Source of the DNA: Minisyncoccota bacterium
Lineage (GTDB): Bacteria > Patescibacteriota > Minisyncoccia > Phycocordibacterales > Zambryskibacteraceae
Direction: 5' to 3'
Length of the DNA: 37,372 nucleotides
Assembly: GCA_020059045.1 (NCBI GenBank)
Contig: JAGVCW010000017.1
Span: forward strand, 1 to 37,372
A program made the position numbers and the translations under genes. Within the stretch, counting starts at the first letter, position 1. The number at the start of each line of letters is the position of its first letter. The notes under the pieces were generated by a model that saw only the letters and a list, made by a program, of their open reading frames with translations, was not told where the DNA came from and did no database searches. Below, in pieces: positions 12,310 through 14,822 of this stretch.

Positions 12310-13299
12310 TTATTTGTACTCACTAAATACTTTATTATTCAACTTGTGAGTATTGCCATGTGAGAGTAACCCCCTATATGATGATACTGTTTGTGCCTTT
12401 TGGTTATGTTTTATCCTTTTTATCATTCTTCGTTTTGTGGCTGGTCTTATAACTTTGTGATCAAAAAAGTGTATCCATCCCAAGAAATCTATTCCTGATG
12501 TGAATGTTTTCGTAAAAACTTTATTTGGGTGTAAATTCAGCTTTAACTTTTCTTCTAGAAATTTGTTTGCTATTTGAAGAGTACTAAAAAGATAATTTTT
12601 ATTATCAGACAGAAATACGAAATCATCAGCGTACCGTATATAAAATCTACATTTTAATTCGTGCTTAATAAACTGATCAAACTTGTTCATATATATATTT
12701 ACTAGAAGTTGTGAAGTAAGATTGCCCAGTGGTAAGCCTTTGCCTACTACCCCAGAATCAAAGCTCTTCACAACCACTTTTAGTAGTTGGAGCGTCTCAG
12801 CATCAATGTCATAAGTAGAAAGAATATTCAAAAGTATAGTATGGTCAATGCTTGCAAAAAACTTCTTAATATCGCACTTCAGAACCCAGCAAGTTCTAGT
12901 ATTGTTCTTGCTTACCTTCCAAAAGTTTTGCTTAAATCTACATATTGCCTTATGTGTCCCTTTACTCTGCCTACAGGAATAAGAGTCGTGAATGAACCTT
13001 GAATCGAAATACGGATAGAGAACTTTGTATATTGCATGATGTAATAGTCTATCTCTTACACTAGCCTTGTGTATGTTTCTGGGTTTTGGATCTGAAATAT
13101 TGAAAGCATGATATTTGCCATGCTTGTAATTCTTGTTCACCAAATCTGTGTAAAGATTTACGATATTATCCATTAGCCTTAATTGAAATAGCTGTACATC
13201 TTTTTTATTTCTTTTCCCTTTTAAAAACTCCTTCCACGCGTTAAGAAGATTTTCAATTGAAATGATAGAATCAAATGAAAGAAAAAATTGTTTAGACAT
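12310..13299 (-). CDS. DGR-type reverse transcriptase
   Basis: 329 residues, a compact RT with no maturase or endonuclease domain. Motifs in order: a YSCRQSKGTHKA palm start (about 105-116), CDIKKFFASIDH (about 140-151), GLPLGNLTSQLLVNIYMN (about 185-202), the catalytic FYIRYADDFVFLSD (about 219-232) and FLGW (about 285). The GLPLGNLTSQ form, where most RTs have QGxxxSP, is typical of diversity-generating retroelements. The start is supported by GGTGAA about 6 nt upstream. It ends 18 bp before the GH15 gene. With the TR at 13731, the VR at 14206 and Avd it forms a complete DGR, in which it would copy TR RNA with errors opposite adenines. Confidence 0.97.
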   Translation of the reverse strand: MSKQFFLSFDSIISIENLLNAWKEFLKGKRNKKDVQLFQLRLMDNIVNLYTDLVNKNYKHGKYHAFNISDPKPRNIHKASVRDRLLHHAIYKVLYPYFDSRFIHDSYSCRQSKGTHKAICRFKQNFWKVSKNNTRTCWVLKCDIKKFFASIDHTILLNILSTYDIDAETLQLLKVVVKSFDSGVVGKGLPLGNLTSQLLVNIYMNKFDQFIKHELKCRFYIRYADDFVFLSDNKNYLFSTLQIANKFLEEKLKLNLHPNKVFTKTFTSGIDFLGWIHFFDHKVIRPATKRRMIKRIKHNQKAQTVSSYRGLLSHGNTHKLNNKVFSEYK

Positions 13300-13711
13300 A
13301 TTATTTCACCATAAAAAATACTACTATGACGCCCCCCCCCCGCAACTTTTACCCCTACTTCAGAAAACCAAGGAATCATACCTACTTTGGTATAACTATT
13401 ATGGAGAACTACCAAAACTTCACCGATACTCACTTGGATTAAGAATTGATAACTTATTCGTGGAAATCATCGAGGGTATAGCAATTGCGAGCTTTTTGTC
13501 TCGAGAAGAGAAAAGACCTTGGGTAGCCTTCGCTATACGGAAAACAGATACTTTGAAAATACTCTTAATGATTTTATGGGAAACTAAATCTCTTGACGAC
13601 AAGAAATACATTGCGCTTTCATTTAAGACCACTGAAATTGGGAAAATGCTTGGTGGTTGGAGTGGACAGCTTTCAAAACAAAACTCCCCACCAAAAGGCA
13701 GGGAGAAATGA
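13262..13711 (+). CDS. avd: DGR accessory variability determinant (Avd), uncertain start
   Basis: 149 residues as drawn. From about residue 28 it reads as the Avd four-helix bundle of Patescibacteria DGRs: LLPLLQKTKESYLLWYNYYGELPKLHRYSLGLRIDNLFVEIIEGI, then LKILLMILWETKSLDDKKYIALSFKTTEIGKMLGGW. The basic tail (KGREK) is also typical. Avd binds RT and TR RNA and is needed for mutagenic homing in Bordetella phage. It lies on the strand opposite to RT and TR. The ATG at 13262 would overlap the RT start by 38 bp. A second ATG (13326) is followed by a C10 tract (13332-13341) and would be in frame only with one more, or two fewer, C. Confidence 0.85.
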   Translation: MIESNERKNCLDILFHHKKYYYDAPPPQLLPLLQKTKESYLLWYNYYGELPKLHRYSLGLRIDNLFVEIIEGIAIASFLSREEKRPWVAFAIRKTDTLKILLMILWETKSLDDKKYIALSFKTTEIGKMLGGWSGQLSKQNSPPKGREK

Positions 13712-13730
13712 AGAAGATTGCGAGGACGGG

Positions 13731-13850
13731 AAGACGAAACGGCCGACGGCATTCCAGAAGTTGTCAGAGTTGCCGTTGTTGCCGTTGAGCCAACGCTCGT
13801 CGTTGTCGTGTTCGACGTTGAAGACGTTGAGATTGCCATCCGAATCGGTG
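13731..13850 (-). repeat. DGR template repeat (TR)
   Basis: 120 bp matching the 3' end of the target gene (14206-14325) at a constant offset of 475. There are ten mismatches, at 13753, 13780, 13800, 13804, 13806, 13812, 13819, 13827, 13828 and 13845. At each, the TR has T on the plus strand, i.e. A on the coding (minus) strand. The replacements in the VR are seven G, two C and one T on the minus strand. The TR is rich in AAC/GAC codons (NLNVF, DNDERW, NGNNGNSDNFW), which place adenines at the first two codon positions. It starts 19 bp past the avd stop. Confidence 0.97.
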
Positions 13851-14186: not shown

Positions 14187-14822
14187 CTACTTGCTCGGAC
14201 GAACGAAGACGAAACGGCCGACGGCATCCCAGAAGTTGTCAGAGTTGCCGTTGTGGCCGTTGAGCCAACGCTCGCCGTAGCCGTGTCCGACGTCGAAGAC
14301 GCCGAGATTGCCATCCGAAGCGGTGATGGGTTCCATCCCGATGACGAGCCACTCGCCCTTCGGCTGGTCCGCATACTGCAAACGCAGTGCGGGTCCGACC
14401 TCAGCGGGGCAGAGCTCTAGACCCAAGCTCAATGCCTTGGCAATGATGTCTCGACGGTAGGCCCCGTCCTTGAAGCCGAGGTCCGCCACCGACACATTCA
14501 CGAGGTCCACGTTCATCTCCGTCTCACTCACCGTGAAGGCGGGATTGCCGAGGATATCGTTGCCCCAGTCGCCGATTTTCATCTTCGCCTGCTTGATGGC
14601 AGAGCGGAAGTCGTCGGCGGTCTTGAGGTTCGTGCCGAGCTTGACGGTCTTCCACACGGGGAAGTCAAGCTGTGGCTCAGGAATGGGTTCGGGCTTTGGG
14701 GCCTCCACCAGGACGAGCTCTCCTCGACGTAAACGAGCAGCACCCTCGATACCACCGAGAATGTTGAAGGTTGCCTCGATGGTTCCAAGATCGAGGCCTG
14801 CGTACTTCATTGTCGTGCTCAT
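14187..14822 (-). CDS. DGR target protein with variable C-type-lectin-like C-terminus
   Basis: 211 residues. The N-terminal motif LGTIEATFNILGGIEGAARLRRGELVLVE (about 12-40) is one I know from many Patescibacteria proteins of unknown function. A Pro-rich linker (APKPEPIPEPQ) follows, then a middle domain (about 55-150). The C-terminal part (GEWLVIGMEPITASDGNLGVF...GERWLNGHNGNSDNFWDAVGRFVFV) has the Trp/Gly/Asn pattern of the C-type-lectin fold used by DGR targets. There is no signal peptide or membrane helix. Start at ATG 14822 with GGAGG about 9 nt upstream. The gene is clearly richer in G+C than its neighbours. Ligand unknown; varied binding is inference. Confidence 0.93.
   Translation of the reverse strand: MSTTMKYAGLDLGTIEATFNILGGIEGAARLRRGELVLVEAPKPEPIPEPQLDFPVWKTVKLGTNLKTADDFRSAIKQAKMKIGDWGNDILGNPAFTVSETEMNVDLVNVSVADLGFKDGAYRRDIIAKALSLGLELCPAEVGPALRLQYADQPKGEWLVIGMEPITASDGNLGVFDVGHGYGERWLNGHNGNSDNFWDAVGRFVFVRPSK
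14206..14325 (-). repeat. DGR variable repeat (VR)
   Basis: The copy of the TR inside the target gene, covering about residues 166-206 of 211. Protein changes from TR to VR are D to A, N to G, N to D, E to G, D to G, N to Y, D to G, N to H and N to D. The invariant frame (ERWLNG.NGNSDNFW.AVGRFVF) remains. The end near 14206 is GC-rich with no TR-specific adenine (GGCCGTTTCGTCTT on the coding strand), as expected for the initiation of mutagenic homing site. Confidence 0.97.

Follow-up and report, generated by a model that had tools for sequence, protein, structure and literature searches.

A run of ten cytosines stands at the start of avd in a DGR of a Minisyncoccota bacterium (contig JAGVCW010000017.1), and as assembled it leaves an upstream ATG one base out of frame with the Avd core. 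Does the tract vary in length and so switch the gene, or did the assembly miscount a fixed homopolymer? The first-pass annotation of this stretch of DNA, 37,372 nucleotides in all and referred to below as the window, had posed both possibilities. To answer the question we compared the window with avd loci from other Patescibacteria.

Layout of the DGR locus and identity of Avd

The window belongs to a genome of 901,670 bases (96.8% complete) and contains a DGR reverse transcriptase gene (RT, 12310–13299, minus strand; RVT_1 E = 8.5e-25), a template repeat (TR, 13730–13850, minus strand) and a variable repeat (VR, 14205–14325, minus strand). The VR lies at the 3′ end of the gene for the target (variable) protein (14187–14822, minus strand), which had no match in Pfam or NCBIfam. 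The RT adjoins the TR/VR pair and all 10 mismatches between the repeats fall at template adenines, so that both hallmarks of a DGR are present, and the latter indicates that this DGR has worked in its lineage. The avd gene occupies the plus strand in the interval from RT to TR, and a TR-to-RT transcript would run antisense through it. Only 18 bases lie between its stop codon (ending at 13711) and TR (13730), which bears out the close spacing reported in the first-pass annotation. The same annotation treated the divergent orientation of avd as an oddity, and in this it was mistaken: an RT was found near 270 of the 279 avd loci that we collected, and it is divergent and upstream in all 270. The idea that a divergent avd is peculiar to the window genome can thus be rejected.

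The Avd core reading frame (13331–13711, plus strand) encodes a protein that matches both available models with significant E-values, bAvd (PF22296; E = 1.5e-8, 35.5 bits) and NF033474 DivGenRetAVD (E = 7.7e-14, 51.9 bits), and stays under the curated cut-offs of 40 and 80, respectively, so that family membership cannot be assigned by score. A profile search of PDB sequences gave no match. The predicted structure, however, is a confident four-helix bundle (pLDDT 91.2) that matches the chains of BPP-1 Avd (4DWL) with TM scores of 0.74–0.80 on query length, as well as chains of the DGR RNP structures 8UB7 and 8UB8; its top structural match is the 23S IVP-like protein 2GSC, which has the same fold. 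The fold expected of Avd is therefore present in the model, and based on position, model matches and predicted fold taken together we call this protein a divergent Avd.

The C10 tract lies at 13332–13341 (plus strand), exactly where the first-pass annotation had placed it, in the start region of avd. It is the only run of eight or more C in the window; three start positions were counted for such runs, against 0.36 expected, and all come from it. The ATG at 13326–13328, the proposed start codon, misses the frame of the Avd core by one base, and translation from it as assembled yields MTPPPRNFYPYF... followed by a stop. Inspection of the reading frame confirmed the earlier reading that 11 or 8 C would join this ATG to the core, as would 14. 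Below, loci are referred to as ON or OFF depending on whether the ATG-open frame is in frame with the core.

A short repeat precedes the Avd core in most sampled loci

Avd loci were gathered by an Avd search in 61 related genomes, an RT search of genome contigs (58 loci), and an Avd profile run against 383 genomes of the class and 379 of the phylum. From the class search we took most of the full-length matches listed, and from the phylum search only the better-scoring part; unlisted and weaker profile matches were left out, so distant Avds are under-sampled. Removal of 33 duplicates and six partial or low-scoring sequences reduced 318 matches to 279 distinct Patescibacteria Avd loci (the duplicates L001, L002, L004 and L010 were removed in an early locus comparison). 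Tracts were counted in the 274 readable loci, excluding two cut by a contig end and three with N at the tract, and ATG alone was accepted as a start codon. Viral contigs scanned with the RT yielded no relative.

A short repeat is found just before the conserved Avd core, at the same place as the C10 of the window, in 204 of the 274 readable loci, and 70 lack one. Runs of 7 to 14 C account for 172 loci, mostly C9 (62), C10 (46) and C11 (27). Dinucleotide repeats of CT, CA or GA occupy the avd start in 28 loci, tetranucleotide repeats (CAAC, AACC, CAAT) in three and a pentanucleotide repeat in one (AGGAC, 37 nt; L292, G736:C9), the repeats of these longer units spanning 9–47 nt. Repeats with units of three or six bases were searched for at the avd starts of all 274 readable loci, and none was found. 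Since only non-triplet units are present, the pattern points at the reading frame, and the locus shows one property of a phase-variable gene, a non-triplet repeat placed to alter the reading frame. Outside the tracts, runs of at least seven C or G are rare (three in 671,131 bases of 155 tract-bearing loci). The window genome has one other C/G run of eight or more, a G8 (G000:C27:4303-4310; L092 1501–1508) inside the apparent signal peptide of a surface-type protein, which is in frame as assembled; possibly this is another slippage-prone gene. At L122 (G263:C22) the tract consists of nine C followed by nine G.

The location of the repeat could also have to do with the other strand. Since the TR-to-RT transcript passes antisense through avd, a G-rich or purine repeat in that RNA, or in the spacer of the RT promoter, might tune RT expression or RNA folding; in BPP-1, the RNA of the TR-RT spacer is folded and serves to recruit RT-Avd (PMC12875486). 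Distances do not support such a role. Over 167 C runs, the tract end is 42 nt from the core Tyr with a MAD of 2 nt, whereas its distance to the RT start, 28 nt, has a MAD of 10 nt and ranges from −191 to 1153. Moreover, loci without a repeat keep both the divergent layout and an in-frame avd ATG, and the absence of 3- and 6-base units is best explained by a role in the reading frame. On the strength of the distance test we reject an RT/TR-side role, which we regard as very unlikely. At one locus, L063, the RT is about 1.2 kb from avd, and a C14 tract is at the usual avd place.

All three phases occur and phase is lost quickly

In 169 of the 204 tract-bearing loci a single ATG-open frame leads into the repeat. 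Among the first 155 loci there were 134 such cases, whereas 200 dinucleotide shuffles of the sequence upstream averaged 67.5 and never exceeded 86. Relative to the core, the ATG frame of the 169 loci is in frame in 35, one base short in 60 and two bases short in 74. Thus, 134 of 169 loci are OFF, and even with ambiguous loci included at most 58 of 204 are in frame. The in-frame share is under the neutral one third (chi-square over three phases, p = 1e-3). Selection for OFF, or some other cause, is needed to explain this deficit; that OFF loci exceed the two thirds expected under neutrality fits a costly mutator that is kept mostly silent, although counts of consensus sequences cannot prove it. 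Loci without a repeat are different: 69 of 70 have an in-frame ATG (Fisher p = 2e-32 relative to 35 of 169), and in the sole exception, L078, a stop codon directly precedes the core. Starts that are out of frame with the core are therefore nearly confined to loci with an intervening repeat. Translation from the open ATG often yields a recurring N-terminal peptide, MSQLNFHKN or a variant of it, whatever the frame of the core. Conservation of this stretch may be shared with RT, because part of it lies opposite the RT start.

To see how these properties are inherited, we built a tree from the 274 Avd cores and compared counts of changes with those for shuffled labels. Repeat presence requires 26 changes (shuffled mean 62.5) and unit type 14 (30.2), and such low counts imply that both are inherited. 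Phase requires 73 changes, equal to the shuffled expectation (75.3, range 66–83), which means that a given phase does not persist for as long as species take to diverge. The same can be seen in close relatives. L184 and L186, with cores 95% identical, carry CT repeats of 17 and 13 nt and are OFF and ON, respectively; L003 and L005 (89% identical) have C9 and (AACC)10, and the related L104 and L106 are repeat-less and in frame. Tract length also differs within the pairs L172/L179, L101/L123 and L057/L062. Variation in length from one close relative to another, a further property of phase-variable genes, is therefore present.

A near-random phase across species is what one would expect if DNA length did not matter, that is, if RNA polymerase or the ribosome slipped on the tract in a programmed manner and supplied low, constant Avd whatever the length encoded. 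C runs are +1 frameshift sites, and OFF loci bear A-directed mutations (see below), both of which speak for such slippage. It does not readily account for the CT, CA, GA, AACC, CAAC, CAAT and AGGAC repeats that occupy the same place, as none of these units is known to be a polymerase or ribosome slippage site. Programmed slippage would also favour one phase, whereas both out-of-frame phases are common, and it leaves unexplained why starts without a repeat are almost invariably in frame. We consider this explanation unlikely, if the most serious of the alternatives.

The start of avd in the window

The window itself is an ambiguous locus, because ATGs are present in two frames: the one at 13326 and an in-frame ATG at 13262–13264 (plus strand). 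As noted in the first-pass annotation, the latter overlaps the RT start: it lies antisense within the first RT codons, the RT starting at 13299 on the opposite strand. It is unlikely to be the true start. In L051, whose Avd is about 71–72% identical to that of the window, an ATG is found at the place equivalent to 13326, directly before a C7 tract that is in a different phase, and no in-frame avd start is present at this locus. In addition, the residues encoded from 13262 to the tract are unmatched in most relatives, with alignments beginning mostly at query residues 14–25. For these reasons, which rest on sequence comparison alone, we prefer 13326 as the avd start. A start at 13262 is rejected on account of its position antisense to the RT start and of the minority of tract-bearing relatives with any in-frame ATG; if it were used nevertheless, Avd in the window would have a longer N-terminus and the locus would be ON. 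A fixed C10 combined with a conserved start at 13262, the pattern against which relatives were to be compared, is absent, L051 being a case in point.

Tract length within single assemblies

Homopolymers are error-prone, and some contigs and N gaps do end at the tract, so a miscount of a fixed homopolymer has to be weighed. The repeat, however, comes from many independent assemblies, always at one place, and includes di-, tetra- and pentanucleotide units. Miscounts of a fixed in-frame tract would, moreover, leave most loci in frame, which the large majority of single-frame loci are not. Assembly miscount alone is rejected because of the non-homopolymer repeats, and we hold it to be extremely unlikely. 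Of the two possibilities raised at the outset, a variable tract is strongly favoured by the prevalence of the repeat among relatives and by the occurrence of all three phases.

Some assemblies bear on variation within populations. In G244 two contigs meet at the tract, one with C10 (OFF) and the other with C12 (ON), and their overlap is otherwise identical (116 and 12 bases on its two sides). This is suggestive of a length difference within the population, but it is a single case, located at contig ends with low k-mer coverage (1.84) and without reads. The two contigs of G140 that end at the tract (C23 and C17), one with C11 and the other with at least seven G and then an altered base, are suggestive but give no clean length difference. 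N runs coincide with the tract in L148, L164, L174 and L188 (4 of 15 N runs in 198 loci), and contig ends or N runs at the tract recur in L055, G140, G179 and G076. One contig of G179 breaks off within a (TC)10 repeat. In G076, RT and avd are on separate contigs, the former beginning shortly ahead of RT and the latter shortly past the expected tract position. Searches of contig ends in G195 and G014 revealed no second copy of the tract. Recurrent breaks are expected if lengths are mixed, although assembly difficulty alone could also cause them. In G143, contigs L149 (end of G143:C3) and L124 (G143:C8) share identical sequence from the RT side up to the tract and continue into avd sequences that differ, reflecting either a duplicated RT or recombination at the tract.

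Avd is retained at OFF loci

If avd were decaying, the C runs could be neutral debris, and stops in the core of 12 of the 134 OFF loci might be taken as signs of this. The core is nonetheless open in the other 122, and dN/dS is 0.04–0.11 in 15 of 15 close Avd pairs, OFF–OFF pairs included. Judging from these ratios, Avd is under purifying selection, which contradicts decay, as does the retention of the repeat across the phylum sample; we find decay scarcely tenable. TR/VR pairs were identified by BLAST at 222 of the 279 loci (29 loci were too short), and VR mismatches are A-biased at 105 of 111 OFF, 28 of 29 ON and 47 of 48 repeat-less loci with a pair. Activity at the OFF loci therefore either dates from the recent past or persists in part of the population. 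A search for MutS gave no match in the window genome, whereas 11 of 14 control genomes were matched, and the incompleteness of the genome leaves some doubt. Slippage should be frequent on account of this absence.

A model of phase-variable mutagenesis

The repeat, its conserved place, the three phases, the quick loss of phase, the in-frame starts of loci without a repeat and the selection on Avd are observed. The explanation that we put forward with considerable confidence, in the absence of reads and switching rates, is slipped-strand phase variation of avd and hence of DGR mutagenesis. Slipped-strand mispairing in replication is the presumed cause of changes in the length of C10, and because the unit is not a multiple of three, each change would move the start codon into or out of the Avd frame. 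With 8, 11 or 14 C a full Avd of about 128 residues would be made. With the assembled C10, translation from 13326 would end early, presumably with loss of the Avd protein. Without Avd, OFF cells would not mutate VR and would keep the current variant, whereas in ON cells VR of the target protein would mutate, the switch being heritable and reversible if expression changes as inferred. The putative benefit is that a minority mutates while the majority holds its protein fixed. Avd is needed for DGR retrohoming in BPP-1 (PMC12875486), and it is for this reason that a slip would switch hypermutation of the VR-bearing protein. This is also a weak point of the model, since the necessity of Avd was shown in a phage system and is extended to Patescibacteria by analogy.

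More broadly, and with somewhat less assurance, we think it likely that DGR mutagenesis across Patescibacteria is a heritable stochastic switch that is mostly OFF, the avd repeat being kept phylum-wide and refilled with different units, so that a small ON minority hypermutates the binding protein and the OFF majority preserves the working version. If true, this would be a contingency locus controlling a mutator. Little is understood of how DGRs are kept in check, and a binding protein that was hypermutated without pause would lose its good variants; with a slippage switch on Avd, lineages could diversify at some times and preserve what they have at others. A practical consequence is that, with the assembled frame usually broken at the repeat, many Patescibacteria avd genes will be missed by gene callers or given a wrong start.

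Relation to known DGRs and contingency loci

The locus resembles the BPP-1 DGR (avd-TR-brt) in having an RT, a TR, a VR with adenine-directed changes and a four-helix Avd. The arrangement differs: avd, TR and brt form one operon in BPP-1 (PMC12875486), whereas in the window avd diverges from RT, lies antisense to the TR-RT transcript and has a frame-shifting repeat at its start. In the survey of Roux et al. 2021 (PMC8144416), the cellular DGRs of DGR clade 2 are restricted to Patescibacteria. DGRs of the window type are probably the same group. The main text of that survey does not mention accessory, avd, frameshift, phase variation or homopolymer. Nor did our searches of open-licence papers turn up a report that connects avd or DGR control with a simple repeat or with phase variation; a mention in an earlier survey is not excluded. 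The locus also resembles the contingency loci of Haemophilus, Neisseria and Campylobacter, which likewise have non-triplet frame-shifting repeats and show all phases among relatives. Known contingency loci mostly switch surface structures or methylases, while the product switched here belongs to a machinery for hypermutation. An Avd slippage switch would thus join contingency loci with targeted hypermutation, two classic strategies. Both ingredients are known; their combination, a contingency repeat that governs a hypermutator and is kept across the phylum sample, appears to be new.
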